Origin: Oscillatoriales cyanobacterium PMM_0080
GTDB lineage: Bacteria > Cyanobacteriota > Cyanobacteriia > Cyanobacteriales > Microcoleaceae
Direction of reading: 5' to 3'
DNA: 36,548 nt
NCBI GenBank assembly: GCA_949127775.1
Contig: CASBQF010000157.1
Location: 1-36,548, forward strand
The notes beneath the pieces were generated by a model. The model was not told the DNA's origin. It made no database searches and was given only the letters and a program-made list of their open reading frames with translations. This document shows positions 432-32,784 of this stretch, piece after piece (position 1 is the first letter of the stretch; every line of letters starts with the position of its first letter). Made by a program: the position numbers and the translations under genes.

Positions 432-1769
432 TTACCTAACTTGTAACAAGTCGTCTAGTTGGCGGTAATCGGGCAAAGTTGTATCAATTTCTTTACCCTG
501 CCGCAAAACTGTGCGATCGCGCTGCGATCTAGATAACAGTTCGCTGAAATTCCGCGCTTTAAACAAAATCAAATCTGCTGGTAAACCAACTCCTATTCGT
601 CCCAAATTTGGCAATCCCATTAAGTCGGCTGGTGTTGTTGTGACTGTGCGCGGCCAATCTTCCCAAGGCCGATCTAAATGGGCGATGCGGACTGACATAT
701 TAAAGACTTCTAAAACATCGTGATCGCCAAATCCGTAAAACGGATCGCGACAGTTATCGCTAGCAACTGTGACGGGAATTCCTGCTGCTTTGAGTTCGTG
801 CAGCAATGTCACTCCCCGCCAGCGCGGTGTACGCCCATATTGTCTGTCTTGCAAATAAAGGTTGCACATCGGTAGGCTGACAATCCCAATATTTGCTTGC
901 TTGACTAATGTCAAAGTTTCTGTTACTAATTCTGGCGGTTGTACAGCTAAACTACAGCAGTGTCCGCAGATTATTTGACCTGCAAATTCATGCTTAATAG
1001 CGGTTTTTGCGACTTCTCGCAATGTTGTTGATTCTGGATCGTCGTTTTCGTCGGTGTGGAAGTCGAGGTTTAAACCGCGCTCTTGGGCTAAGCTAAAAAC
1101 GCGATCGAGCTGTTTGTCTAAATCGGGATTCATATAAGCAACGCCACCAAGTATACCGCCGATTTCGGCTATGCGATCGGCTAATTTTTCGCCTGCGGGT
1201 GTCAGGAAATAGTCGAGGGAAACCAGGGAGACTGCTTGCAAGATTAGCCGATCGCCCCATTCGGCCTGCAATGCTGCAAATACTGCTAAACTAACCGTTC
1301 CCTGCTCCCCTGTGCTATCGATGTGAGTGCGGATCGCTTTGGTTCCGTGGGCGTAGCTGCACTTGAGGCCGAACTGCATCCGCCGATAAACATCCTCTGC
1401 ATTCCAGTTTTTTTGAGCGTCAGCGCGCGCGGAGTCGATCGCCCTAGCAAAAGTTCCATCGGGATTGGGCGATCGTTCCCAAATGTGTCCTTTGTCTAAA
1501 TGCGTGTGCATATCGACAAAACACGGGAAAACTAAGCCACCTTGCAAATCTACAACTGGGATATCTGGAAGTTGAGATAAATGTTGCGTACCTGTGGGGA
1601 TGATTTGGGCGATCGTACCCGCTGCAATTTCCAAATCCACCGCACAAAAATTGTTCTCTGTCCCCGTAGCGGCGGCAGGAAAAGCTGACTGGGCGCTCGA
1701 TTGCGTCTCTAGAAGAGACAGGGGCACGCGAGCATTTTTGAGCAAATAATTAGATTTACTTGGCAACAT
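432..1769 (-). CDS. codA: cytosine deaminase-like metal-dependent amidohydrolase (CodA family)
   Basis: The 445-aa protein has the amidohydrolase (beta/alpha)8 metal-ligand set with CodA spacing. H88-T-H90 follows the first strand, H238 and E241 lie in HTDEND, H270 is in ICGHC, and D338 is in VASDNCRDPFYGFG. The 32-residue interval H238 to H270 equals H214 to H246 of E. coli CodA, and E241 matches catalytic E217. CodA hydrolyses cytosine to uracil and ammonia. Inference: the protein could feed uracil to the URC1/URC4/UPRT genes on the opposite strand at 3.4-9.0 kb. Related deaminases act on other pyrimidines, creatinine or isoguanine, so the substrate is not certain. The ATG at 1767-1769 lies upstream of the N-terminal beta-sandwich (LLKNARVPL), consistent with full length. 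Confidence 0.85.
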   Translation of the reverse strand: MLPSKSNYLLKNARVPLSLLETQSSAQSAFPAAATGTENNFCAVDLEIAAGTIAQIIPTGTQHLSQLPDIPVVDLQGGLVFPCFVDMHTHLDKGHIWERSPNPDGTFARAIDSARADAQKNWNAEDVYRRMQFGLKCSYAHGTKAIRTHIDSTGEQGTVSLAVFAALQAEWGDRLILQAVSLVSLDYFLTPAGEKLADRIAEIGGILGGVAYMNPDLDKQLDRVFSLAQERGLNLDFHTDENDDPESTTLREVAKTAIKHEFAGQIICGHCCSLAVQPPELVTETLTLVKQANIGIVSLPMCNLYLQDRQYGRTPRWRGVTLLHELKAAGIPVTVASDNCRDPFYGFGDHDVLEVFNMSVRIAHLDRPWEDWPRTVTTTPADLMGLPNLGRIGVGLPADLILFKARNFSELLSRSQRDRTVLRQGKEIDTTLPDYRQLDDLLQVR

Positions 1770-1862
1770 TAAATTTGTGAGTTAGTATTTTCTTAAGAAT
1801 TTAGGGCGATCGCAAAAACGCTACCGACCATCATTGTCTGTTGAGCGTCGGTTGTATTCTAG

Positions 1863-1876
1863 GTAACAAATCCTAC
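1863..1876. promoter_or_regulatory. NtcA-like palindrome GTAN8TAC in the divergent spacer
   Basis: The 326-bp spacer between the divergent deaminase and methyltransferase genes holds an exact GTA-N8-TAC match (GTA at 1863-1865, TAC at 1874-1876). This is the consensus for the cyanobacterial nitrogen regulator NtcA. On the plus strand a TAAAAT (fits TAN3T) follows 24 bases later, one or two more than in classic NtcA promoters. In the minus direction no good -10 box was seen at the usual distance. Such a motif is expected several times by chance in 36 kb. The rest of the spacer shows a poly-A run near 2027 and a duplicated 10-mer near 2060, but no gene. Confidence 0.3.
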
Positions 1877-2095
1877 CTTCTCAGTCTAACTCTTGAGACA
1901 TAAAATCGTACAGCGCCGCTCGGCGGTCGATCGCCAACCAGCCAAGCATCTAAAAATACATATCTGTCAATCAAAATATTACTCGATCTGCTTGCAGGCG
2001 TGCACTCTACCTTCCCAACTAATGGTAAAAAAAAAAGGTGTTGCTCCACTGCCATTAGAAACTGTTAGAAACTGTAAAAATTGTGAAACTGAACC

Positions 2096-3004
2096 ATGCA
2101 AAAATTTACAAATTGCCCAGCTTGCAGCTCTCATAAAATTAGCTTCCGGTACACAGCAGGGACAGCACGCCAACCTAAAGAGGCTCCTCAATGGTCAGTT
2201 TACGGATGCGAAGATTGTGGCTTAGTATTCGTAAATCCCCGCCCGACATGGGATGAACTGAGCGATTATTATCCTGAAGGCTGGCAGTGCTTCAACACTC
2301 ACGCACCAGATGAAGAAGATGTAGTAAAAGAAGCCAAAAAACTCAATGAATACCGACACATTCCTATTCCTGTAGGCAAGCGACTGTTAGACGTGGGATG
2401 CGGCGGAGGTTCCATTATCCAAGTCTTCAAACAACTCGGAGTTGAGGTAGCAGGAATTGAACCTAGCTCCTCAGCCGCAGCCGCAGGCCGCGAATGCGGT
2501 GTCGATATTTTCACAGGCACTGTAGAAGAATACGTTGCAGAAAAAGGTACTGACGAAAAGTTTGATGTCATACTCTGTTCCCACGTTTTGGGAGCAACAC
2601 CTTTCCCTGCTGAAACACTCGACTGCATGAGGCAATTGCTAGCTCCAAACGGTTACATTTGGGTGGCTGTACCGAATGCTGACAGTCCATACGCGCGGAA
2701 ACTAGGCTGGCGCTGGCACAGCACCGATTATCCTTACAATTTGATCGGTTATACTCCAAAAACCTTGGGTCTAGCCGGCGAAAAGGCTGGTTTGGAAATT
2801 CAGCGAAATTACACATATTCTTTGCCGGAGGCCCTTCGTTACTCTATCTGTTTGTGGCAGCGCTATAAATGGTTTGTACCACACAAAGTTACCCGTTTCT
2901 TCCTTTCTGACGAACGTGTTGAGAGTATGACCAAAGAATTGGACTCCCGCGGCGAAGGCGAGGCAATTTTAATGGAATTCTGTCACCCTCAAAGCCTGGA
3001 TTAA
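2096..3004 (+). CDS. class I SAM-dependent methyltransferase with N-terminal zinc-ribbon-like motif
   Basis: 302 aa. The N-terminus has paired cysteines (CPACSS at about 8-13 and CEDCGLVFVNPRP at about 39-51), the zinc-ribbon start common in methyltransferases of sugar and secondary metabolism. Residues about 90-190 form a Rossmann methyltransferase core. Motif I is LLDVGCGGGSI, followed by VAGIEPSS (acidic residue after strand beta-2), then FDVILCSHVLGA and LAPNGYIWVAVPN. This resembles the Methyltransf_23 type. The substrate cannot be read from the sequence. No strong Shine-Dalgarno precedes the ATG. The gene stands alone and ends about 40 bp before a strong hairpin with a T-run. Neighbouring genes do not suggest a pathway, so only the fold and cofactor are assigned. 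Confidence 0.85.
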   Translation: MQKFTNCPACSSHKISFRYTAGTARQPKEAPQWSVYGCEDCGLVFVNPRPTWDELSDYYPEGWQCFNTHAPDEEDVVKEAKKLNEYRHIPIPVGKRLLDVGCGGGSIIQVFKQLGVEVAGIEPSSSAAAAGRECGVDIFTGTVEEYVAEKGTDEKFDVILCSHVLGATPFPAETLDCMRQLLAPNGYIWVAVPNADSPYARKLGWRWHSTDYPYNLIGYTPKTLGLAGEKAGLEIQRNYTYSLPEALRYSICLWQRYKWFVPHKVTRFFLSDERVESMTKELDSRGEGEAILMEFCHPQSLD

Positions 3005-3041
3005 TCCATTTTGAGCAAAAGTATTTGAGTTGAGAATATTC

Positions 3042-3093
3042 GATTTGAGATTGACGACACCGGGCGCGGTTCACAATCTCAAATCTTTTTTTT
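3042..3093 (+). terminator. rho-independent terminator of the methyltransferase gene
   Basis: A perfect 12-bp inverted repeat (GATTTGAGATTG at 3042-3053 and its complement at 3074-3085) encloses a 20-nt loop and is followed directly by eight T residues (3086-3093). It lies 38 bp after the methyltransferase stop. The rest of the 357-bp spacer up to URC1 shows no convincing gene; a short reading frame there has no coding signature. Confidence 0.75.
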
Positions 3094-3361
3094 CGTATCT
3101 GTTAAAAGTTCAAAATTGGCGTTTGAGTGTTGTGCTGTCTTTGGGCTTGGCTATACTGGGAAAGATTGAACTCTGGACTTGTATCAAATCTGACGCAAAG
3201 CTCCTGTTATCCTGAAACCCAAGCCTAGATAGGGTTTTGTGTGTTTAGCGCGATTGTTTCAACCAGGGATGCCTGTACTGTTGGTATGATGAATCACTGT
3301 TTCAGATTGCGATTTGGCTTACAACCAACAGCAGCATCCATAGCAAGAGCCAAAAAAAACT

Positions 3362-4609
3362 GTGTCAAAACCCAAGCATATAGTTTTAACATCCCATCCC
3401 GGCAGATCCGGCACAAAACCTCTTCCCATTTATTGGGGAGAAATCGATCCCCTGAAACGGGGGCCTGTGATTGGCAGCCTCAGCAAATCGTCTCACCGGA
3501 ATGCCATTGGCACTCATTCGGGTTCTTACTCTGTTTATCGAGCGCTAGCAGTTGCTTCCGGCGCACTCCAAGCGGATCACCTGCCCGATTTTACCAACAC
3601 ATCTCCGGCTGCACATATCGGGCCACATCCGAGTTGGGGCGATCGCAATTTGATTGTTTCTCTCGATCCCTTTGGGGGTTTGGTTAGCGAAATTTACACT
3701 TCATTTTCCCAGGAAGGATACGATATTCGACCGACAATTGCTGTCACTAAAGCTCACATTAATATGCCGGAATTGCAAGATGCGATCGCTAAGGGGCGCG
3801 TGCAAATTGATGGCAAAATAGTCAAGGAAGGCGGCAATTTAGCCGTGACTAAAATTGCGATCGACCCGGTGTGGTATTTGCCGGGAATTGCTCGCAGGAT
3901 CGGAGCACAAGAAAGCTTTCTCCGCCGTGTCCTATTCGAGCAAACAGGCGGTATGTTTTCGGATTTAGTCACGCGGCCGGATTTGCAGGTTTTCTTGCCC
4001 CCAATTGGTGGAACTACGGTTTATATTATTGGCGATGTCGCGAATATTTCTGATCCACAAAAACAGTTGGCGGTACGGGTACATGATGAATGCAACGGTT
4101 CTGATGTGTTTAGTTCGGATATCTGCACTTGCCGCCCTTATTTGGTACATGGGATTGAAATTTGCATCCAAACAGCACAATCTGGGGGTTCTGGAGTAGT
4201 TGTTTATTTCCGCAAGGAAGGGAGAGCTTTGGGCGAAGTGACTAAGTTTTTGGTGTACAATGCCAGAAAACGGCAGGAAGGTGGCGATCGCGCTGATGCC
4301 TATTTTACTCGCACTGAATGTGTTGCGGGAGTTCAAGATATGCGGTTCCAAGAACTAATGCCTGACGTGCTGCACTGGTTGGGTATCTCTCGGATTGACA
4401 GTTTAGTTTCTATGAGCGATATGAAATACAATGCGATTATCAATTCTGGCATTCAGGTGGTCGATCGCATCCCCATTCCCGAAGATTGGATTCCCGCAGA
4501 CGCACAAGTCGAAATTGTCGCCAAAAAAGCCGCTGGCTACTACACGTTAGACCCTGTACCAGATGCTACAATTCTTGCAGAAGCGAAAGGACGCGATTTA
4601 GGAGATTGA
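3362..4609 (+). CDS. urc1: URC1-type GTP cyclohydrolase II paralogue (uracil catabolism)
   Basis: 415 aa, about twice the length of RibA. The C-terminal half carries the GTP cyclohydrolase II fold. The zinc triad C244-x10-C255-x-C257 has exactly the RibA spacing, and E286-G287-R288 matches the RibA EGRG loop. The surrounding residues differ from RibA: RCDCGxQL is replaced by ICTCRPYL and EGRGIGL by EGRALGEVTK. The N-terminal 200 residues are an extension typical of URC1/Urg1 proteins. In Lachancea kluyveri URC1 is required to use uracil as nitrogen source and is thought to act on a uracil-derived nucleotide, not in riboflavin synthesis. The nearby URC4 and UPRT genes support that role. The start used is the GTG at 3362; no clear Shine-Dalgarno is visible. 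Confidence 0.85.
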   Translation: MSKPKHIVLTSHPGRSGTKPLPIYWGEIDPLKRGPVIGSLSKSSHRNAIGTHSGSYSVYRALAVASGALQADHLPDFTNTSPAAHIGPHPSWGDRNLIVSLDPFGGLVSEIYTSFSQEGYDIRPTIAVTKAHINMPELQDAIAKGRVQIDGKIVKEGGNLAVTKIAIDPVWYLPGIARRIGAQESFLRRVLFEQTGGMFSDLVTRPDLQVFLPPIGGTTVYIIGDVANISDPQKQLAVRVHDECNGSDVFSSDICTCRPYLVHGIEICIQTAQSGGSGVVVYFRKEGRALGEVTKFLVYNARKRQEGGDRADAYFTRTECVAGVQDMRFQELMPDVLHWLGISRIDSLVSMSDMKYNAIINSGIQVVDRIPIPEDWIPADAQVEIVAKKAAGYYTLDPVPDATILAEAKGRDLGD

Positions 4610-4611
4610 GA

Positions 4612-4657
4612 TGGCAAAGACGCGATCGTTCGGACGCGAACTATTACGTCTTTGCCA
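4612..4657 (+). promoter_or_regulatory. inverted repeat between URC1 and the cyclase gene
   Basis: A perfect 11-bp inverted repeat, TGGCAAAGACG at 4612-4622 and its complement at 4647-4657, begins three bases after the URC1 stop. The 24-nt loop contains a CGATCG and a second small CGCG pairing. No T-run follows, so it is not a classical terminator. It could stabilise the URC1 3' end or act as an attenuator between the two genes. Function is inferred only from position. Confidence 0.4.
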
Positions 4658-4698
4658 AATGAAATTTATTGCTGGTTTTTGATCAGTCAGGGTAGGTT

Positions 4699-5781
4699 AT
4701 GGCTAATTTGCGTTCTACTGTGATCGTAAAAACAGATATTTGCGGATATACCGTCAGAGTTAAAAAACTATCTCAGTCGGACTTAAGTAGTTTATTGAAC
4801 GAGCATAAAAATTTTATTTCAGACATTAGTACCAGAAATGAAGGCAGCGTAATTAAAGGGGAAGGTGATTCATTTTGGATGATTTTTCCTAGCGTCACAG
4901 CAGCGGCTATGGCAGCCATAGAAATGCAGCAAGAATTGAGAACTCAACAATCTAGCAAATCCAACGAAGAACGATTGGCTATTCGCGTATCGATTACATT
5001 AGGAGATGTCTTGCATCAAGATAAAGATATCTTTGGAGATACGGTAAATTTAACCGCGCGCATAGAATCAGTAACTCCACAGGATGAAATATATTTGTCC
5101 CAAGCCGCATGGTTGGCGCTTAACAAAGCAGAAGTACAAACATCTTTTGTGAATGAGTTTTCTTTGAAAGGGATGAGCGAACCTGAAAAAGTCTACAAAG
5201 TTGACCAAAGTCACAAAACGCGAATAGTAGAAAATCAAGCAATTATTAAAGCTGACTTGAGAGGTTTTATTGCTTATCAAGAATCTAATTCTATTAGAGA
5301 TGTTGAATATTTACTCACCAATTTCGATACGTTTGAAAAAACCGTTTGCGAAGAATATGGCGGTACAATTCGGAGTATTGTGGGAGATTCGCATTTGTTG
5401 ACTTTCCCGGAAGCTCACTCAGCTTTAGCAGCAATGGAAAGTTTGTGCGAGAATTGGAAACTTTTTATTCATGGTAATCAAATACCTTGTGGTTTGTCTG
5501 TCGGAGTTGCGAAAGGAAATTTGTATATATTTCGCTCTTGTACTTACGGAAAAGATATTAACATCGCTGACAGGTTGGAAGATTTAAGCAAAATAGTATC
5601 TCCGGGTACAGAAAAAAATTCGGTTATTGTTTCCGATCAAGTAAAGCGCGAAGTTAGTGGCTCGAAGTGGGAATATAAGCTGATCAAAATCGATAGAAAT
5701 GTGATTTTAGATAATCTTTTAGATTACAGTCAGTTTGACTTTTTCAAAGACAATGATGTTTATCGGTGCTTAGTGGTATGA
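4699..5781 (+). CDS. tandem class III adenylate/guanylate cyclase-like protein encoded between URC1 and URC4
   Basis: The 360-aa protein has no membrane or sensor domain and consists of two cyclase homology domains. Domain 1 (about 6-168): metal Asp D13 in VKTDICGYT, D57 in KGEGDSFWMIF, and N117/R121 in FGDTVNLTARIE. Domain 2 (about 180-358): D186 in IKADLRGF, D230 in VGDSHLLTF, and N288/R292 in YGKDINIADRLE. Domain 1 has K53 at the adenine-selecting lysine position, whereas domain 2 has S226 there. This asymmetry recalls the pseudo-heterodimer of mammalian cyclases folded within one chain. A plausible ribosome site (AGGGTAGG) lies a few bases before the ATG. The stop overlaps the URC4 start by ATGA, implying translational coupling. 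The product nucleotide and the link to uracil use are unknown. Confidence 0.8.
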   Translation: MANLRSTVIVKTDICGYTVRVKKLSQSDLSSLLNEHKNFISDISTRNEGSVIKGEGDSFWMIFPSVTAAAMAAIEMQQELRTQQSSKSNEERLAIRVSITLGDVLHQDKDIFGDTVNLTARIESVTPQDEIYLSQAAWLALNKAEVQTSFVNEFSLKGMSEPEKVYKVDQSHKTRIVENQAIIKADLRGFIAYQESNSIRDVEYLLTNFDTFEKTVCEEYGGTIRSIVGDSHLLTFPEAHSALAAMESLCENWKLFIHGNQIPCGLSVGVAKGNLYIFRSCTYGKDINIADRLEDLSKIVSPGTEKNSVIVSDQVKREVSGSKWEYKLIKIDRNVILDNLLDYSQFDFFKDNDVYRCLVV

Positions 5782-7025
5782 AGTTGGACAATATTGAACT
5801 TGAGACTGTAGAATATCTGAGAACGCCGGCTGCAATTCGCCAAAAGTGCGATCGACTATTTAATTTAGCCTCCGAAAATAAACTCCGCCACTTCCGCGTC
5901 GATTTATCCCAACTCGACAAAGCAGCAAACTATGTAATCGACACAACCCGCCAACAGTATCCCGATTTGAAGATTCCGTTTCACAGTCGCTGGCGGCATT
6001 TTGAAACAGGCAACCTGCCGCGACTCGCCCAATTAGATGCAGCTTTAGCACAATTTACGCCCGTTCAAAAAGCACAAATCAAATTCGATTTAGCAATTGT
6101 CAGCGTTTTACTCGATGCCGGCGCTGGCGCAGAGTGGCAGTATTGCGAAGCAGAAACAGGACAGGTTTACCGCCGTTCTGAAGGGTTAGCAATAGCCACC
6201 TTTCGGATGTTTTGTCAAGGTGTTTTTTCGAGCAATCCTGATTCCCCTCTTCAAGCTGATTCTCTGGGACTTTCTGGGTTAAAACTAGAAACTTTAGCTG
6301 CTGGATTTCAGGTAAATCGAGACAATCCGCTAGTTGGTTTAACAGGCAGATTAGAATTATTGCAGCGTTTGGGGAGTGCGATTTGTCAGCATCCATTATT
6401 GTTTGGCAGCGAAAATCCGCGTCCCGGGAATTTAGCAAAATATTTGCTGGATAGTCGGGTTTCGGGAGTGAAAACTGTGAAGGCTGTTGAAGTATTCAGC
6501 GCTGTTTTGAAGGGTTTTGGGGAAATTTGGCCGGGAAGATATGCAATTGGTGGTGTTAATTTAGGTGATGTTTGGCGGCATCCGGCACTACAAGGAGAAA
6601 ATTTGGGGGATGAATTTGTGCCGTTTCATAAACTCTCGCAGTGGTTGACTTATTCGCTGTTGGAACCACTACAAGAGCTTGGTTTAGTCATCGCCGGATT
6701 GGATGAGTTGACGGGATTGCCGGAGTATCGCAACGGCGGTTTGTGTTTGGATATTGGGCTGCTGCTGGCAAAAGATGCGGCTATTTTTGAGCAGAGTTAT
6801 TTGCCTGGTTCTGAGGTTATAGTTGAATGGCGATCGCTAACTGTGATTCTTTTAGATAAAATTGCCGCTGTTATGCGAAAAAAGCTGCATTTGACTGCGA
6901 GAGAATTGCCGCTGGTGAAGATTTTGCAAGGGGGAACTTGGGCGGCTGGGCGGAAAATTGCCGGGGAATTAAGGGCTGGTGGAGTGCCGCCTATTCAGAT
7001 TGAAAGTGACGGCACTGTGTTTTGA
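5778..7025 (+). CDS. urc4: URC4/Urg3 family protein (DUF1688)
   Basis: Starting at the ATG that overlaps the cyclase stop (ATGA, 5778-5781), the product is 415 aa. It begins MKLDNIELETVEYLRTPAAI and contains family-typical stretches such as FHSRWRHFETG, LDAGAGAEWQYCE, SEGLAIATFRMF, YAIGGVNLGDVWRH and GLPEYRNGGLCLDIG. I recognise these as DUF1688, the URC4/Urg3 family, which in fungi belongs to the URC uracil-degradation genes together with URC1 and UPRT. Its biochemical reaction was not established to my knowledge, and no standard catalytic motif is evident. No signal peptide or membrane segment is seen. A GTG four codons upstream (5766) is an alternative start. The overlap with the cyclase strongly suggests co-translation. 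Confidence 0.85.
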   Translation: MKLDNIELETVEYLRTPAAIRQKCDRLFNLASENKLRHFRVDLSQLDKAANYVIDTTRQQYPDLKIPFHSRWRHFETGNLPRLAQLDAALAQFTPVQKAQIKFDLAIVSVLLDAGAGAEWQYCEAETGQVYRRSEGLAIATFRMFCQGVFSSNPDSPLQADSLGLSGLKLETLAAGFQVNRDNPLVGLTGRLELLQRLGSAICQHPLLFGSENPRPGNLAKYLLDSRVSGVKTVKAVEVFSAVLKGFGEIWPGRYAIGGVNLGDVWRHPALQGENLGDEFVPFHKLSQWLTYSLLEPLQELGLVIAGLDELTGLPEYRNGGLCLDIGLLLAKDAAIFEQSYLPGSEVIVEWRSLTVILLDKIAAVMRKKLHLTARELPLVKILQGGTWAAGRKIAGELRAGGVPPIQIESDGTVF

Positions 7026-7050
7026 TTAAATAGGTGAGGTTTGAAAATAT

Positions 7051-7166
7051 TAATTCAGTAGGGTGCGCAGTGCGCACCTTACGATGAACCTAATTATGAT
7101 TTTTTTACTAATTCAGTAGGGTGCGCAGTGCGCACCTTACGATGAACCTAACTATGATTTTTTTAC
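7051..7166. repeat. two tandem copies of a 58-bp repeat with a 17-bp palindrome
   Basis: Copies at 7051-7108 and 7109-7166 differ at a single base (AATTATG versus AACTATG). Each carries the palindrome GGTGCGCAGTGCGCACC (8-bp arms, one centre base) followed by a T7 tract. A close relative of the palindrome (centre T) occurs alone at 17390-17406. The near identity implies a recent duplication. Confidence 0.9.
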
Positions 7167-7205
7167 AGAACTTAATCTCAGGTTTAAAGTTGTAATAAAA
7201 GCAGT

Positions 7206-7235
7206 AAAAAACCCGGTTCCTTTACGAAACCGGGT
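7206..7235 (-). terminator. rho-independent terminator of the DUF4360 gene
   Basis: Read on the minus strand, the hairpin ACCCGGTT / AACCGGGT (7235 down to about 7211) is followed by six T residues (A-run 7206-7211 on the plus strand). It lies about 30 bp past the DUF4360 stop. Its stem belongs to the AACCGGGTT repeat family also present at 9655-9719 and 25811-25873. Confidence 0.75.
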
Positions 7236-7265
7236 CATCGGTGTTATGTTTTTTGGCTCTTGGGT

Positions 7266-7841
7266 TTATTTACAAGTGCGATATTTGACGTGATAAACTA
7301 AACCGCGATGAGCCAAATCGAAGGAGTCAACGGTTGCCATGCCGGCCCCCCGGGCTGTCATCGAGGCATTCACTCGCATATTTACACTGTCGCCGCAGCG
7401 AGACCAAACATTAGCTACAGTGGCTAAGCTATCTCGAACGTTGTAGTTAGTTTCGCCGTTGAAAGTCCGAGAAAAAACTGGGCCGCGGGTTCCTGCGAAA
7501 AAGTATTCTGCTCGCAAGTTGCCTGTCGTGCTAGGAGCAACGTAGCCGCGGTAATCAGCATCGTAGATCGAAATTTGGAAGCCTTGGGGTACTTTGATGG
7601 GAATGCTCAGATTGCAGTTTTTCCGGGTTTCTGTTGAGATATTTCCCTGGGCAGTAAACTTATCAAATAGGATGCTGAGTTCTTGACCATCTGGACTGAC
7701 GGTGACGCTGGCGGAGCGATCGGGACAACCGTTGCCACCGTAGCTTGCACCTAATATTTGAACGGACGGAGTAGCAGCAATGGCGGGGGTGATAGCAGCA
7801 GTCATTAATGCCGTTGCTAGCAAGAGTTTTACAAATTTCAT
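7266..7841 (-). CDS. secreted DUF4360 family protein
   Basis: 191 aa from the ATG at 7839-7841, preceded by an excellent ribosome site (AAGGAG, 8 bases upstream). The frame is open 30 codons further upstream, but that stretch has no good start signal. Residues 1-22 (MKFVKLLLATALMTAAITPA, then IA) form a classical signal peptide cleaved after AIA or IAA. The mature part (PSVQILGASYGGNGCPDRSA..., IPIKVPQGFQISIYDADYRGYV, a late WSRCGDSVN and a C-terminal YRTCK) matches the DUF4360 family, including four conserved cysteines likely to form disulfides. Function is unknown. It is expected in the periplasm or outside the cell. It interrupts the URC genes on the opposite strand and has its own terminator, so it is probably independent of them. 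Confidence 0.85.
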   Translation of the reverse strand: MKFVKLLLATALMTAAITPAIAATPSVQILGASYGGNGCPDRSASVTVSPDGQELSILFDKFTAQGNISTETRKNCNLSIPIKVPQGFQISIYDADYRGYVAPSTTGNLRAEYFFAGTRGPVFSRTFNGETNYNVRDSLATVANVWSRCGDSVNMRVNASMTARGAGMATVDSFDLAHRGLVYHVKYRTCK

Positions 7842-7947
7842 GGATGTTCTCCTTAATGTTTTTTTTCTTAGGACAATCCTGAATAATTCAAGGAATATTG
7901 AGGCGATGCCCTTCCAATTAGGAGATGGCAAGCCTTTACTGAAAAGG

Positions 7948-7990
7948 CAGTCAGATTCTGACTGAGCGCTAGATATATGTACCTATATCT
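7948..7990. promoter_or_regulatory. two adjacent palindromes upstream of the DUF4360 gene
   Basis: CAGTCAGATTCTGACTG (7948-7964) is a perfect palindrome with 8-bp arms around one base. Six bases further on, AGATATATGTACCTATATCT (7971-7990) has 7-bp arms around six bases. They lie about 107-150 bp upstream of the DUF4360 start and could be operator sites. The rest of the 521-bp spacer between this gene and upp is AT-rich, with no gene seen. An AAGGAG at about 8327 lies too far from the upp start to act as its ribosome site. Confidence 0.35.
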
Positions 7991-8362
7991 GTTTTTTTCA
8001 AGTAGCATTATTTTATTGGTTAATGCCTATTCTGTCCTGATACTTTCTAAGATTCATCCCATTTAAGGACTACTCCGGAAGATTTTTTAGGAAAATATTT
8101 ATCTTTTTTTTTAAGAGTTTTGGGGAACAAAGCTCTGGTTTTTGGGTCGGCGCAGCGCGGATAAATTGTTGTTGAGCTGTGAATTTTATTCCTTGGTTAT
8201 TGGCTGATAAAAGACGCTGAAATTTGGGAATTAGAGCCGCCGTTGCTGTAGGAAATGGATCTGTCTGGTGGCGGGGAACGATGAAAAAGAGGGGATTTCT
8301 GTATTTTCAGGCAGATTCAGGAAAGGAGAATTATAATAAATAAAATTAACTCTTTAAAAAAT

Positions 8363-8998
8363 ATGAATGCTAAAGTTACTGTCATCGACCATCCTTTGAT
8401 ACAGCACAAGTTAACTCTGATGCGGCAAACTCAAACGAGTACGGCGAAGTTTCGCCAATTGCTGAAAGAAATTGGGATGCTGTTAGCTTATGAGGTGACG
8501 CGAGATTTGCCGCTGAAGTATGAATTAATAGAAACGCCGATCGCCAAAATGAATGCACCGATGCTGGCTGCGGAAAAAAAAATGGTGATAGTTTCGATTA
8601 TGCGTGCCGGTCAGGGACTTTTAGAGAGTATTTTAGAACTGATGCCGTCGGCGAGGGTGGGACATATTGGTTTGTACCGCGATCCGACGACTCATATGGC
8701 GATCGAGTATTATTTCAAAGTGCCCCAGGATATCGAACACCGAGATGTTTTAATTGTCGATCCGATGTTGGCAACTGGCAATTCAGCAGTCGCGGCAGTC
8801 GATCGACTGAAAGAAGTAAATCCCAAGTCTATTAAGTTTTTGTGCTTGCTGGCGGCACCGGAGGGAATTGAGCATTTTCACCAGCAGCACCCTGACGTGC
8901 AAATATATACGGCGGCTATAGATGAGCGTTTGGACGATCGCGGATACATTGTACCCGGATTGGGCGATGCGGGCGATCGGCTTTACGGAACTATGTAA
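8363..8998 (+). CDS. upp: uracil phosphoribosyltransferase
   Basis: 211 aa, the usual UPRT length. It shows IMRAGQGL (about residues 80-87), the PRPP-binding loop [10 protein letters not shown] (about 133-142), and the uracil-binding C-terminal motif [17 protein letters not shown]. It makes UMP from uracil and PRPP in the cytosol. UPRT (URC6 in L. kluyveri, urg2 in fission yeast) is the third enzyme of the URC set. Its position 1.3 kb downstream of URC4 on the same strand fits a role in that pathway, though ordinary uracil salvage is also possible. No Shine-Dalgarno is visible directly before the ATG, only an A-rich leader. No terminator was found downstream. Confidence 0.92.
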
Positions 8999-11963: not shown

Positions 11964-13205
11964 TTAAAATTGCAATAGCCGATCGTACTGCCGACCTATG
12001 ATATCCCAGGTGTATTCGGTTTCAATTCGCTTTCGCGCACCCTGTGAGAGTTCCTGTCTTAGCTCCTGATTTTCAAACAAACTGGTAATCGCCTCAACAT
12101 ACTCCTGAACTTTGTTCGCCCGCAAGGCCCTGATGGGTTCTAGCCCGCCACCGATGACTAAACCTTCCAAACCTCGATCGCTCGCCACCACGGGGGTTCC
12201 CGCAGCCATCGCCTCCAAAGTTTTATTTTTAATCCCAAAACCAATCCGCATCGGCACCACACAAACAGCAGCCTGATGCAAATATTCTGCCACCCTTTGC
12301 ACCCTGCCTACGACTTGAATTCCGGGGAGTTTCCCCAAGGCGAGGACTTCCGGGACTGGCGAGGCCCCAACTAGGGTAAGGGTGATATCGGGATACCGCT
12401 GCTGCAAAAGGGGCAGTATCTGCAAACTGAGAAAGCGCGCTGCGTCAATATTGGGCAAATTGTTCATTGCACCTGCAAAAATTAAGGTGTGTCCTCCCGG
12501 ATCGATCGCGCGATACGGAAATTGGGCCAAATCCACGCCGTTAGGAATCACATCAATGGGAGGAACAAAAAAATCTGCTTTCCCTCCCAGCCTAGGCTGC
12601 GACAGCAATTCTAGGAGTTGGTGCTGATCTGTGGATGTTGTTGTGACAATCCGGGAGAATTTGGAACAGTAGCGTGTTTCGTAGCGGGCGAGTAGGGGTA
12701 AATTCAGTCGATCGCGCAGGGGTTTTTGGGAAGTGCCGGTGGCTAACATTTCCCTGCAAGTTCCCCAAACGGAACTGTGAATATTTACGACTGTCAGCAG
12801 TTTCTGTCGCCATTCTGGACGCACGTAAATCTCGTTAACGCTGTGTTCGCAGGTGACAGCATCGCATTGGCCTGTTGCTACTAATTCGTCAGCCCAATTC
12901 TGCATTGCTCTTGAGTAGCTTGAGAGTACGTTCGGAGGCGTCCCGGATAACACAAATCGACTGAAACGACTGATTTTTCCAGCGAGTCCGGTTGAAACTG
13001 TTCCAGGAGTCTCGAAAACTGCCAATTTTGTAACTTGCTCTCGTAATGCGTCGATTTGTGCATCGGTGACATCGGGCGATCGTACAGTGCCGAGAATTAC
13101 ATCATGCCGCTGGCTCAGGTATTTCAGCAAATTAAACGTCCTTACCTGAGTTCCGCCGCGGGTTGGCGGATAGGGAAAAGTCGAGGAAAGCATCAAAATC
13201 TTCAT
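11964..13205 (-). CDS. glycosyltransferase family 4-like protein
   Basis: 413 aa from the ATG at 13203-13205. The frame is open for 56 further codons upstream, but MKILMLSSTFPYPPTRGGTQ is the canonical GT-B N-terminus, so the internal start is chosen. The acceptor domain holds GGTQVRTFNLLKYLSQRHDV. The donor domain holds DVIPNGVDLAQF (about 255-266), HTLIFAGAMNNLPN, the EX7E-like region with GFGIKNKTLEAMAAGTPVVA (about 338-357) and DRGLEGL. It transfers a sugar from an activated donor, probably in exopolysaccharide or cell-surface glycan synthesis. Donor and acceptor cannot be read. It is divergent from the TPR gene at 13282 (76-bp gap) and lies near a GT2 enzyme. Confidence 0.85.
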   Translation of the reverse strand: MKILMLSSTFPYPPTRGGTQVRTFNLLKYLSQRHDVILGTVRSPDVTDAQIDALREQVTKLAVFETPGTVSTGLAGKISRFSRFVLSGTPPNVLSSYSRAMQNWADELVATGQCDAVTCEHSVNEIYVRPEWRQKLLTVVNIHSSVWGTCREMLATGTSQKPLRDRLNLPLLARYETRYCSKFSRIVTTTSTDQHQLLELLSQPRLGGKADFFVPPIDVIPNGVDLAQFPYRAIDPGGHTLIFAGAMNNLPNIDAARFLSLQILPLLQQRYPDITLTLVGASPVPEVLALGKLPGIQVVGRVQRVAEYLHQAAVCVVPMRIGFGIKNKTLEAMAAGTPVVASDRGLEGLVIGGGLEPIRALRANKVQEYVEAITSLFENQELRQELSQGARKRIETEYTWDIIGRQYDRLLQF

Positions 13206-13281
13206 GAAATTTGGGATAAATAAAGTTGCCGCTTGCGCGATAAAATTGATTAATAAAACCTGTTTAACAATCCTCACACCT

Positions 13282-13752
13282 ATGGACGAATTATCTGTCA
13301 AGGCACTGCTGGAAGACTTGAAAAAGTCTGACGAAAGCGTGCGCGATCGGGCAACTACAGAACTCTGGCGCACTTGGTTTAACCAGAAGGGTGAGTATGG
13401 GATGCAAATTCTCAGGCGATCGCAAGTTTCGCTAGATGCAGGCGATGTTCGCCATGCTTTGGATTTGCTGACGAAACTGATATCCGAATCTCCAGATTTT
13501 GCTGAAGCTTGGAATCGGCGCGCGGTACTTCACTATACCCAAGGAAATTATAAAAAGTCGATTCAAGACTGCGAAAGGGCGATCGAACTAAATCCGGTGC
13601 ATTTTGGCGCGCTGCACGGTCTGGGGTTGTGCTACGCTGCTCTGGGAGAATACAGAAGTGCTATTCGAGTTTTTCGTCGCGCTTTGGAAATTCAACCTTT
13701 TGCTTTGGTGAATCAAAAGTTAATTCTAGAATGTACGGCTCGTTTGAGTTAA
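13282..13752 (+). CDS. tetratricopeptide repeat protein
   Basis: 156 aa from the ATG at 13282 (MDELSVKALLEDLKKSDESV). The frame also opens at 13204, but those codons overlap the start region of the divergent glycosyltransferase and do not look like coding sequence. Residues about 42-140 form roughly three TPR units, seen in the pattern AWNRRAVLHYTQGNYKKSIQ, ERAIELNP, ALHGLGLCYAALGEYRSAIR, RRALEIQP. TPRs are protein-binding scaffolds. No signal peptide or catalytic domain is present. Cyanobacteria have many such short TPR proteins and the partner is unknown. Confidence 0.85.
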   Translation: MDELSVKALLEDLKKSDESVRDRATTELWRTWFNQKGEYGMQILRRSQVSLDAGDVRHALDLLTKLISESPDFAEAWNRRAVLHYTQGNYKKSIQDCERAIELNPVHFGALHGLGLCYAALGEYRSAIRVFRRALEIQPFALVNQKLILECTARLS

Positions 13753-29349: not shown

Positions 29350-30228
29350 GTGATTCAAAATTCTCCTGAAAAACCTACAAATAACTTTCAAAATGGATGG
29401 CACGGCCGCCTCAATCTAGTCTATGCCAACCGCGACGGCTCAACTCAAATCATCCGCAATGAAATGCAAGCACCCCTGAAAGTGCAGCGCCCTTTTTATC
29501 CCGAAGGTAAGGAGATTTGTCACAGCGTCATATTGCACACGGCTGGGGGAGTTGTTGGGGGCGATCGGCTTTCAAGCCATTTTCACCTCCAACCCAACGC
29601 CAAAGCCTTAATTACCACGGCCGCCGCTGGTAAAATCTATCGCAGCAGCGGACAAGAATCACAACAAAATATTGAAATACAAGTAGAATCAGGTGCTAAT
29701 TTAGAATGGCTACCGCAGGAAACAATCGTTTTTGACAGCGCAATTTATAGGCAAAATTTGCGGGTAGAATTAGCTCCCAAGGCGAGTATTTTGCTGTGGG
29801 AAATTACACGGTTTGGACGCACTGCTAGAGGCGAAAAGTTCTTGTCGGGGAAATGGCGATCGCACACGGAGATTTGGCAGCAAAACTATCCTTTGTGGAT
29901 TGACAGACAATGGCTAGAAGGTGGGGGCAAAATGCTCGAAAGTCTTCACGGCTTAGACGGAAAGCCCGTAGTTGCTACCCTCGCTTGGATAGGCGCAACC
30001 GTCACAACAGAACTCCTCGAAAAAGTGCGGGCTTTTTTGTCATCAGAGGCAACAATTCATCCTGGTAACTCCATCGTCGGCGTGACTCGTATTGCTAACG
30101 GTTTGGTGTGCCGATATCGCGGTACATCCACTGCTGCGGCTAGGGACTATTTTGTCGGCATTTGGCACTTGCTGCGCTTGTCTTTTTCAGAACGCCCTTG
30201 CTGTTTGCCCCGAGTTTGGGTAAAATAG
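29350..30228 (+). CDS. ureD: urease accessory protein UreD
   Basis: 292 aa. Family blocks: HGRLNLVYANRDGSTQIIRN, APLKVQRPFYPEG, VILHTAGGVVGGDRLSSHFH, ALITTAAAGKIYRS, LEWLPQETIVFDSA and FSERPCCLPRVWVK at the end. UreD (UreH) binds the urease apoprotein and, with UreF and UreG, supports nickel delivery and lysine carbamylation. The start is the GTG at 29350. UreE, UreF and UreG are not in the window. First gene of ureD-ureA-ureB-ureC. Confidence 0.92.
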   Translation: MIQNSPEKPTNNFQNGWHGRLNLVYANRDGSTQIIRNEMQAPLKVQRPFYPEGKEICHSVILHTAGGVVGGDRLSSHFHLQPNAKALITTAAAGKIYRSSGQESQQNIEIQVESGANLEWLPQETIVFDSAIYRQNLRVELAPKASILLWEITRFGRTARGEKFLSGKWRSHTEIWQQNYPLWIDRQWLEGGGKMLESLHGLDGKPVVATLAWIGATVTTELLEKVRAFLSSEATIHPGNSIVGVTRIANGLVCRYRGTSTAAARDYFVGIWHLLRLSFSERPCCLPRVWVK

Positions 30229-30311
30229 CATCATATTTTATTTTCAATAGATTTACCGCGACTGATAGTTAAACCTGAGCCAATAATGCGATCGCACTCA
30301 CAAGAATAATA

Positions 30312-30614
30312 ATGCAACTCACCCCCCAAGAAAAAGACAAACTGCTGATTTTCACCTGCGCCCTGGTAGCAGAGCGCCGGAAACAAAGAGGTTTAAAATT
30401 AAACTATCCAGAATCAATTGCCTATATCTCTGCTGCCCTTTTAGAAGGAGCCAGAGATGGCCTCACCGTCGCCGATTTAATGAGTTATGGCACAACGCTC
30501 CTGACGCGGGAAGATGTGATGGAAGGGATACCAGAAATGGTGAATGAAGTGCAGGTGGAGGCGACTTTTCCCGATGGCACTAAACTCGTTACAGTACACG
30601 ATCCAATTCGTTAA
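30312..30614 (+). CDS. ureA: urease gamma subunit
   Basis: 100 aa, [60 protein letters not shown], and [20 protein letters not shown]: a standard, complete urease gamma chain. It packs against UreC in the (alpha beta gamma)3 enzyme. The ATG follows an A-rich leader without a strong ribosome site, 83 bp after ureD. Confidence 0.95.
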
Positions 30615-30647
30615 AGATTTAACCAAATAAACCCACAGTAAAAAAAG

Positions 30648-30959
30648 ATGATTCCAGGAGAAATGATTGTTTTAGCAGGTGAAATAGAGTTAAATGCAGG
30701 GCGTGAAACGGTACGACTGCTGGTAGCAAATACGGGCGATCGACCTATCCAAATCGGTTCCCACTATCACTTTTATGAAGCTAACGAAGCCTTACAATTT
30801 AATCGAGAACAAGTGAAAGGAATGCGATTGGATATTCCGGCGGGTACAGCAGTTAGATTTGAACCGGGAGATGAAAGAGAAGTGCAATTAGTACCTTTTG
30901 TCGGTAGTCGTGAAGTCTACGGATTTAATGGGAGAGTGAATGGCGAGTTAGATAAATGA
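30648..30959 (+). CDS. ureB: urease beta subunit
   Basis: 103 aa, [60 protein letters not shown], and [14 protein letters not shown]: a complete urease beta chain. The SHYHFYEAN block is the family hallmark. It lies 33 bp after ureA and 67 bp before ureC. Confidence 0.95.
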
Positions 30960-31026
30960 GAGACAATTTGAATATGATCAACAATATTGCGAAACTAACA
31001 AATAATCAAGTGAGAAGTTAATTAAT

Positions 31027-32784
31027 ATGAGTTACAGAATGGATCGCCGCGCTTATGCGGAAACTTTCGGGCCGACTGTGGGCGATCGCGTCCGATTAGC
31101 CGATACAGAATTATTCATAGAAGTTGAACAAGACTTCACAACTTACGGCGATGAAGTGAAATTTGGTGGTGGAAAAGTCATCCGCGACGGTATGGGACAA
31201 TCGCCGATTTCTAATGCGGATGGTGCTGTTGATACGGTAATTACTAATGCTTTAATATTGGATTGGTGGGGAATTGTCAAAGCAGATATCGGGATTAAAG
31301 AAGGCAAGATTTACAAAATTGGGAAAGCTGGAAATCCTTATATCCAAGATAGAATAGATATTATTATCGGGCCTGGTACAGAAGTAATTGCTGGCGAAGG
31401 CATGATTCTCACCGCTGGGGGAATTGACACTCATATTCACTTTATTTGTCCGCAACAAATTGAAGTGGCGATCGCCTCTGGAGTCACTACCATGATCGGC
31501 GGTGGTACAGGCCCAGCAACGGGTACTAACGCCACAACCTGCACTCCCGGGCCTTGGCATATGTACAGAATGCTGCAAGCCGCCGATGCTTTCCCGGTAA
31601 ATCTGGGGTTTTTAGGTAAGGGAAATACCAGTCAACCCCAAGGATTAGTCGAGCAAGTATTGGCTGGTGCAATGGGTTTGAAACTCCACGAAGATTGGGG
31701 GACTACGCCAGCAACGATCGACAATTGTTTGAGTGTAGCTGACGAGTACGATGTACAAGTGGCAATTCACACCGATACTCTCAATGAAGCGGGATTTGTG
31801 GAAGCTACAATTGCTGCATTTAAAAATCGCGCTATTCACACTTACCACACTGAAGGTGCTGGCGGCGGACACGCACCGGATATTATCAAAGTTTGCGGAC
31901 AAGCTAATGTTTTGCCATCGTCAACTAACCCGACTCGCCCTTACACTGTCAACACATTGGAAGAACATTTAGATATGTTGATGGTGTGTCACCATTTGGA
32001 TCGGAGTATTCCTGAAGATGTGGCTTTTGCTGAATCGAGAATTAGAAGGGAGACTATTGCTGCTGAGGATATTTTGCACGATTTGGGTGCTTTTAGCATG
32101 ATTTCTTCGGACTCGCAGGCGATGGGAAGAGTTGGGGAAGTGATTATTCGGACTTGGCAAAGTGCTCATAAAATGAAGGTGCAAAGGGGTCATTTGGACG
32201 GGCAAGATGCCCGTTCTACAATAGATTTGGACGGGCAAGATGCCCGTTCCACAAGTGGGGAAAATGATAATTTTCGGGCGAAACGGTATATTGCTAAATA
32301 CACGATTAATCCGGCGATTACTCATGGAATTAGTCAGTATGTGGGCTCGGTGGAAGAGGGAAAGTTGGCGGATTTGTGTTTGTGGAGGCCGGCGTTTTTT
32401 GGGGTGAAACCGGAAATGGTGATTAAGGGTGGGGCGATCGCCTATGCGCAGATGGGAGATGCTAATGCGAGCATTCCGACGCCGCAGCCGGTGCATATGA
32501 GGCCGATGTTTGGCAGCTTTGGGGGGGCGATCGGGGCGACTTGTCTGACGTTTGTTTCGCAGGCGGCGCGCGATCGAGATATTGCCACACAGCTAGGTTT
32601 ACAAAAGCCCACTGTAGCAGTTTCGGGGACACGGCAGATTAGTAAAAGAGATATGAAACTGAACGATTATTTGCCGCACATGGAAGTCGATCCAGAAACC
32701 TATGAAGTGAGGGCGGATGGAGAATTGCTGATTTGCGAACCTGCAACAGTTTTACCAATGGCGCAGCGATATTTTTTGTTTTGA
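31027..32784 (+). CDS. ureC: urease alpha (catalytic) subunit with an in-frame repeat insertion
   Basis: 585 aa, about 18 longer than the usual 567. Nickel ligands are in place: the HIHF pair after GGIDTH, the carbamylated lysine in [12 protein letters not shown], His residues in [11 protein letters not shown] and GAGGGHAPD, and the Asp in [12 protein letters not shown]. The flap Cys is in [20 protein letters not shown]. The protein hydrolyses urea to ammonia and carbamate. Residues 390-410 carry two copies of LDGQDARST (11-residue period) between MKVQRG and [18 protein letters not shown]. This surface loop is normally about 8 residues long, and the extra codons come from a dispersed DNA repeat. 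The frame is intact, so activity may be retained. Confidence 0.95.
32192..32254. repeat. two palindromic repeat units inside ureC
   Basis: Units at 32192-32221 and 32225-32254 (33-bp period, one base different) each contain ACGGGCAAGATGCCCGT (7-bp arms, AGA loop) followed by TCYACAA. The same hairpin followed by CCACAAG occurs in spacers at 29139-29163 and, more distantly, at about 17850-17878. The 33-bp period keeps the reading frame. Confidence 0.9.

Follow-up and report, generated by a model that had tools for sequence, protein, structure and literature searches.

A probable URC-type uracil catabolism locus in an oscillatorialean cyanobacterium, with URC4 (DUF1688) as a predicted N-glycosidase

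The stretch of DNA analysed here (36,548 nucleotides; hereafter the window) is the whole of contig CASBQF010000157.1 in the 6.4 Mb draft genome of Oscillatoriales cyanobacterium PMM_0080, and its interval 432-8998 carries homologs of the genes for uracil catabolism (URC). The genes there stand in the order codA (minus strand), methyltransferase gene, urc1, class III cyclase gene, urc4, DUF4360 gene (minus strand) and upp, with urc1, the cyclase gene and urc4 on the same strand, and the urease genes ureDABC follow further downstream (Table 1). It is quite likely that this locus represents a bacterial form of the URC pathway, which would take nitrogen from pyrimidines with URC4 acting as a ribosylurea N-glycosidase. 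An initial annotation of the window had named CodA, URC1, URC4 and uracil phosphoribosyltransferase (UPRT) in this interval, with urease "about 21 kb" away. These families lie where it placed them, in intact open reading frames (ORFs) with scores above the curated cut-offs, and the distance from the end of the UPRT gene to the start of ureD is 20.4 kb; the methyltransferase, the class III cyclase and the DUF4360 protein are three further genes beyond that list. The ORF finder starts urc4 at GTG 5766, which is probably too early because ATG 5778 overlaps the stop codon of the cyclase gene as ATGA (5778-5781), making ATG 5778 the likelier start. A single-protein scan of named genomes yielded one locus; the nearest named relative is a cyanobacterial metagenome-assembled genome (MAG) that bears the label Richelia sp. 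CSU_2_1 and has a URC4 with 81% identity.

Table 1. Genes of the interval 432-8998 and the urease genes of the window (HMM, hidden Markov model; SAM, S-adenosylmethionine)
Feature	Position	Strand	Evidence
CodA-type cytosine deaminase (amidohydrolase)	432..1769	-	NF005759 equivalog, 700.6 bits (cut-off 403)
Class I SAM methyltransferase, between codA and urc1	2096..3004	+	PF13489, E 1e-23
URC1, probable UTP cyclohydrolase (GTP cyclohydrolase II type domain)	3362..4609	+	NF005536, 729 bits (cut-off 403); PF12471
Class III nucleotide cyclase, two cyclase-like domains (second by eye)	4699..5781	+	PF00211
URC4 (DUF1688), predicted N-glycosidase	5778..7025 (ORF finder: 5766-7025)	+	PF07958, E 3e-154, 514 bits (cut-off 25)
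DUF4360 protein, between URC4 and UPRT	7266..7931	-	PF14273, E 7e-45
Uracil phosphoribosyltransferase (UPRT, upp, URC6)	8363..8998	+	TIGR01091, 278 bits (cut-off 208)
ureDABC	29350..32784	+	UreD and UreC by HMM; UreA and UreB by eye
UreD	29350-30228	+	PF01774
UreA, UreB	30312-30614, 30648-30959	+	Read by eye, ORF list only
UreC	31027-32784	+	TIGR01792, 979 bits (cut-off 680)

Pairing of URC1 and URC4

To place the locus in the phylum, we surveyed 386 of its genomes, drawn evenly from a larger group. URC4 was found in 33 of them and URC1 in 31, every one of which belongs to those 33 (Fisher p 1e-43, uncorrected for kinship). URC1 was accepted at E ≤ 1e-80; 30 of the matches stand above the curated cut-off, and the 31st, in G039, is a broken gene. 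The two genes are no more than 2 kb apart in 23 of the 31 genomes, and in the other eight (G129, G116, G213, G360, G011, G177, G215 and G332) they are far apart or on separate contigs; URC4 of G360 is situated at a contig end, so that a possible linkage would not be visible there. Both URC4 genomes that gave no URC1 match have a damaged URC4. In G354, URC4 contains stops and URC1 persists as fragments, and in G334 only residues 7-199 of URC4 remain, with a stop. In addition, stops interrupt both genes in G039. Damage in one of the two genes tends to come with damage in its partner, and it is evident that URC1 and URC4 are a real pair, kept and lost together among these genomes, with joint decay in sister genomes.

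UPRT joins this pair less regularly: 16 of the 33 genomes, and also the MAG L031, have an intact UPRT gene downstream of URC4 at a distance of at most about 3 kb. These results bear out the core of URC1, URC4 and UPRT in the initial annotation, and the check that it proposed for urc1-urc4-upp linkage in relatives, when run, found that linkage. The same three genes in the same order also occur outside the cyanobacteria. URC4 is encoded in 13 plasmid records, five of which we examined; three of these five are annotated, and all three, from Azospirillum brasilense, Pseudoroseomonas cervicalis and Gordonia polyisoprenivorans, read GTP cyclohydrolase II, URC4/urg3 family protein and upp, so the name URC4/urg3 is already in use for this protein. 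The Azospirillum operon differs in having a BMP-type ABC importer and an amidohydrolase downstream, and the genus of the window differs from all three in having the cyclase and DUF4360 genes interposed. Among viral contigs, 39 stretches fitted a pattern and none of them encoded a relative.

Activities of URC1 and URC4

The best solved relatives of URC1 are PDB entries 7ej3 and 7eev (E 7e-176, residues 5-413 aligned), which PDB labels as GTP cyclohydrolase II. A paper of Zhang et al. from 2021 is said to name a UTP cyclohydrolase in its title, and we take 7eev and 7ej3 to be the entries that belong to it. The substrate of URC1 is probably UTP, not UMP, and the step "UMP to a ring-opened product" in the initial annotation is probably wrong, as the solved relatives fit a UTP cyclohydrolase if paper and entries are rightly joined. 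When URC1 was compared with the RibA domain encoded in its own genome, HDEC-x10-CTC (HxEC-x10-CxC), RKEGR (RxEGR) and QDMR (DxR) were found to be kept, presumably as the zinc and catalytic motifs of GTP cyclohydrolase II. The TVEAN/LGF region is altered, and this region we assume to be part of the recognition of GTP and its base. The RibA of this genome is a separate gene, a 617-codon RibBA-like frame, which scores 265 bits against a cut-off of 205.9, whereas URC1 reaches just 54.8. Since RibA is present elsewhere in the genome, URC1 need not make riboflavin.

URC4/DUF1688 is entered in Pfam as a protein of unknown function. A family scan matched 17 of 31 cyanobacterial URC4 proteins to PF10343 (Q_salvage), the family of Qng1 (DUF2419), at E ≤ 1 with a best value of 2e-4; the next-best family besides DUF1688 was matched by two of the 31. 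The matching stretches were collinear in 10 proteins inspected, six of them matching ones. Moreover, two of six Qng1-type proteins matched DUF1688 in the reverse scan (E 0.006 and 0.036), and one of three plasmid-borne URC4 proteins matched PF10343 (E 0.058). For further comparison, alignment A1 had 31 rows, with three damaged genes (L060, L061 and L063) left out, and alignment A6 had 19, namely 14 of the 31 in A1 and five plasmid-borne proteins; L079 and L082 were taken from the start of the match, not of the gene. Profiles of 19 diverse URC4 and six Qng1 proteins were aligned by hhalign with E 1e-5, a probability of 82.2% and a score of 47.9 over 176 columns, which cover the catalytic half. 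In the same local mode, all 200 column-shuffled decoys scored lower (maximum 26.9, mean 15.8), and so did the reversed profile (12.7) and control profiles of URC1 (19.1), UPRT (13.4) and the cyclase (18.6).

The residues that are shared point in the same direction. The global alignment of URC4 and Qng1 has 300 aligned pairs; both families conserve 20 of them, 14 with the same residue. The corresponding number in 291 shifts and 5000 permutations was at most 5, a comparison that overstates the significance, since an optimised pairing is set against pairings that had not been optimised. Qng1 has been crystallized with Lys199 changed to Cys (PDB 7u5a) and with Asp231 changed to Asn (PDB 7ulc), as read from the alignments. 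These two positions align with Lys289 and Glu320 of URC4, which are invariant in 19 of 19 URC4 proteins. Similarly, Trp302 of Qng1, named as an active-site residue in a passage of PMC11592518, aligns with the invariant Trp392 of URC4.

Several results weigh against such a relationship. The URC4 of the window itself gives no match to PF10343, and the gathering score of that family (25 bits) is not reached by any of the URC4 scores listed, the best of which is 19.9 bits. The first, less diverse profiles (31 URC4 and four Qng1 proteins) gave E 1e-3 with a probability of only 21.9%, and Qng1 did not come up when PDB was searched with URC4 or its profiles. An AlphaFold model of URC4, made from only two sequences (the window and L031), had a mean confidence (pLDDT) of 35.6, too low to speak for or against a shared fold. 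In the global mode of hhalign, some decoys beat the real pair on short alignments, in one case with 127.5 against 32.7. These decoys aligned about 18 columns on average, and 19 of the 200 gave no alignment; we hold that they are not a fair comparison and rely on the decoys of the local mode.

Taken as a whole, URC4 is a distant relative of PF10343 and not a member of it, and it appears to be remotely homologous to the queuosine-5'-phosphate N-glycosidase Qng1. The likeness consists of this remote homology, a lysine and an acid at the two positions altered in the crystals, a tryptophan at W302 and further invariant residues in common. URC4 differs in having Glu in place of Asp231, in being about 100 residues longer, in staying under the gathering score and in urea as the group that would be released. 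The substrate of Qng1 is given as queuosine-5'-monophosphate in a passage of PMC11592518, an Entamoeba homolog is reported to convert queuosine to queuine in PMC9406330, and a model for Lachancea kluyveri, outlined in a passage of the secondary source PMC7530994, lets the URC4 product degrade ribosylurea to urea. Because URC4 is related to Qng1 and the conversion of ribosylurea to ribose and urea is an N-glycosidic hydrolysis, the reaction type of Qng1, we predict that URC4 is the N-glycosidase of the pathway, splitting ribosylurea (or its phosphate) to urea. No publication that joins the URC4 and Qng1 families was found in a literature search mostly at title level, so an earlier mention is possible.

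Urea degradation, nitrogen regulation and neighbouring genes

The initial annotation expected a capacity to degrade urea with the URC genes, and every URC4 genome has a gene for it. The urease alpha subunit is encoded in 32 of the 33, the genome of the window included, and in G338, the one exception, a urea carboxylase passes its cut-off. Urea carboxylase reached its cut-off in seven of the 33 URC4 genomes, that of the window being one of the seven, and in two of a chosen set of 57 that lack URC4, a set in which 19 have no urease (Fisher p 0.011). On the other hand, the closeness of urease to the URC genes did not stand as part of the set. Among genomes with both on one contig, where alone a distance can be measured (drafts with separate contigs give none), G099, which belongs to the genus of the window, has urease and URC genes at a distance of about 35 kb, whereas they are separated by about 2.2 Mb in G011, 0.4 Mb in G177 and 2.2 Mb in G255 (the shorter way, if circular). 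The closeness is thus local to the genus and its near kin, and urease as a nearby part of the cluster was rejected on these three distances. Within the window, UreC has a short repetitive insert containing GQDARST twice and is 585 residues long against 569 in the family model. An Rfam match to 5_ureB_sRNA (31182-31468, minus strand, 99.6 bits) lies antisense inside ureC, which may merely reflect coding conservation.

A possible signature of nitrogen control was seen in the loci of one related cyanobacterial family (f6). The palindrome GTAN8TAC, which we take to be of NtcA type, precedes URC1 in six of 23 loci and is accompanied by a spaced -10 element (TAN3T) in five of the 23; random stretches of the same loci gave 7.2% and 1.1%. 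All six boxes belong to f6 and represent every f6 locus with a linked URC1 (six of six, five with the -10 element), and the box stands out as conserved in their alignment. When one mismatch was allowed in a box with a -10 element, seven of 23 loci were found against 11.9% of random stretches, and only L045 and L046 were added to the f6 loci. A gene for a TPR protein stands divergent beside URC1 in six f6 loci (L033, L038, L042, L048, L049 and L051); the window has a copy, noted by eye, at 13204-13752, about 6 kb downstream of URC4.

Other neighbours are confined to the genus of the window and its near kin. The best solved relative of CodA is the cytosine deaminase 4r7w (E 3.5e-39), with the HxH, HxDE, GH/SH and D motifs in register. 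The codA gene lies beside URC1 in five of seven genus members and in the MAG L031, as a fragment in G354 and not at all in G195, and it was not found in the other fetched URC neighbourhoods. The codA family occurs in 21 of the 33 URC4 genomes and in 34 of the 353 without URC4. For the route beginning at CodA that had been proposed, the enzyme itself was thus upheld, on its NF005759 score, and its linkage to URC was not; codA was rejected as a core URC gene, the linkage being confined to the genus and L031. The methyltransferase, a singleton in neighbourhood clustering with no clustered relative in the other fetched loci, is probably not part of the pathway. The DUF4360 gene was found in seven loci, namely L031 and six from the genus, one of which is the window; its product is a genus-level neighbour that we do not assign to the pathway. 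Between URC4 and the DUF4360 gene lies a 58-base direct repeat (7051-7166, two copies, 98% matches), the unit of which contains the palindrome-like GGTGCGCAGTGCGCACC. By eye, a PyrR-like gene was seen about 7-9 kb upstream of URC4 in genus members L044, L045 and L057, and a QueC-like gene near codA in L044, L045, L053, L057 and L060.

All seven genus members have the class III cyclase, as do L031 and G129, the latter from a sister genus, and it always lies beside URC1 or its remnant. Its best solved relative is the Ma1120 cyclase, and its first domain keeps Asp13, Lys53, Asp57, Asp110, Asn117 and Arg121 in eight of eight sequences, presumably the residues expected of an adenylyl cyclase. In G039 and G354 the gene has stayed intact, and URC1 and URC4 are both broken; because of this and the kept residues, the cyclase likely has a role of its own. 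We rejected it as a pathway enzyme, since it stands between URC1 and URC4 solely in the genus and near kin and outlasts them where they are broken. A Pycsar pyrimidine cyclase was likewise rejected, because the match to PycC (18.4 bits, E 2.7e-4) was weaker than the general cyclase match; that scan took in the cyclase and two neighbours, of which the methyltransferase gave an unspecific mad2 match.

Proposed pathway and alternatives

We infer the substrates, the order of steps and the use of nitrogen by this organism as follows. CodA would convert cytosine to uracil, UPRT would convert uracil to UMP, and ordinary kinases would take UMP to UTP. URC1 would then open the pyrimidine ring to give ribosylurea (or its phosphate) and a three-carbon acid, URC4 would hydrolyse the bond between ribose and urea, and urease, or in some strains urea carboxylase, would start the release of ammonia. 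For the detailed form, in which DUF1688 belongs to the Qng1 superfamily and, as an N-glycosidase, releases urea from ribosylurea 5'-phosphate by a catalytic Lys/Glu pair, with the route of one cyanobacterial family under NtcA, we have a slight preference over its being otherwise. The URC route itself is known. Lachancea (Saccharomyces) kluyveri and other fungi have it with URC1, URC4, URC6 and URC3,5, and the cyanobacteria share the homologs of URC1, URC4 and UPRT and an enzyme in the genome that degrades urea; they differ in that urease replaces or accompanies the urea carboxylase type, one family has an NtcA-type box and one genus has a cytosine deaminase gene next to the cluster. The Rut and reductive (Pyd) pathways also have nitrogen from uracil as their end, but RutA is above its family cut-off in none of the 33 URC4 genomes, the closest relative, in G332, reaching 436.5 bits against 498.3. 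What this analysis adds is a survey of the phylum, the observation that URC1 and URC4 decay jointly, the boxes of NtcA type and a place for URC4 in the Qng1 superfamily.

Part of the data does not favour a nitrogen-scavenging URC pathway. UPRT is not adjacent to URC4 in 17 of the 33 genomes, in which the search for it was confined to the surroundings of URC4. Urease alpha is also encoded in 136 of the 353 genomes without URC4, and of the urea carboxylase route, which also requires allophanate hydrolase, the carboxylase alone was searched for. Outside f6, no perfect GTAN8TAC stands upstream of URC1 in any of the 17 loci, among them those of the window and its genus. A perfect box without the -10 element also lies upstream of URC4 in eight of 34 loci, so that the box alone is not specific, and three of the six f6 boxes have a -10 element towards the divergent TPR gene as well, so that either gene may be the controlled one. 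Kinship was not removed from the statistical tests. The lack of a perfect box in the genus of the window would also suit a role of the URC genes in pyrimidine salvage or in balancing the pool by disposing of overflowing UTP, all the more as UPRT and CodA are ordinary salvage enzymes and CodA occurs without URC4 as well. This role seems improbable to us, because all six f6 loci in which URC1 is linked carry the box, each of the 33 URC4 genomes has urease or urea carboxylase, and yeast, in a passage of PMC7530994, uses the URC route to grow on uracil as a nitrogen source.

It is also conceivable, though unlikely, that URC4 is not a glycosidase and that its Qng1-like fold is reused, for example to hydrolyse an acyl-urea intermediate, and that ribosylurea falls to a different enzyme, for which the ureidoglycolate-lyase-like (PF04115) protein is a candidate. 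The gene for the latter lies beside URC genes in five of the 33 genomes, namely G005, G172, G300 and G008 (L041, L040, L042 and L032) and G213, in which it adjoins the URC1 that lies away from URC4. Moreover, URC4 has Glu at the place of Asp231, and Asp298 of Qng1 (in PMC11592518) has no clear counterpart. However, the PF04115-like gene is frequent without URC4 too (21 of 33 chosen genomes, compared with 29 of the 33 with URC4) and was not upheld as an obligate URC partner; the lysine, acid and tryptophan at the active-site positions of Qng1 are invariant in URC4, and the secondary account of yeast describes a URC4 product that turns ribosylurea into urea. As for URC1, a cyclohydrolase for riboflavin or another GTP-derived product, with incidental linkage to URC4 and upp, would explain its GTP cyclohydrolase II domain with the zinc and catalytic motifs, but this is very improbable given the separate RibA, the low RibA score of URC1, its altered base-recognition region and its occurrence solely with URC4. 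Finally, the cyclase might be a dedicated regulator that makes a cyclic nucleotide on the state of uracil or nitrogen. It adjoins URC1 or its remnant in eight of eight genomes that have it, including G129 with URC4-upp elsewhere, its gene overlaps urc4, and its sequences are 88-96% identical (eight sequences) against 80-89% for URC4 (those with an intact gene). Such a regulator is doubtful, as 12 of the 20 genomes searched lack the cyclase, 11 of these having URC4 (a weak 33% match in G172 was not counted), and it survives where URC1 and URC4 are broken.

About one in 12 of the sampled genomes of the phylum has both URC1 and URC4, and the NtcA-type boxes suggest that some of these cyanobacteria treat pyrimidines as a nitrogen source. 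The URC4 step has no enzyme class in the libraries searched, and its placement beside Qng1 names a candidate reaction, residues and substrate. If this is true, one superfamily serves both the salvage of a tRNA micronutrient and the catabolism of uracil.

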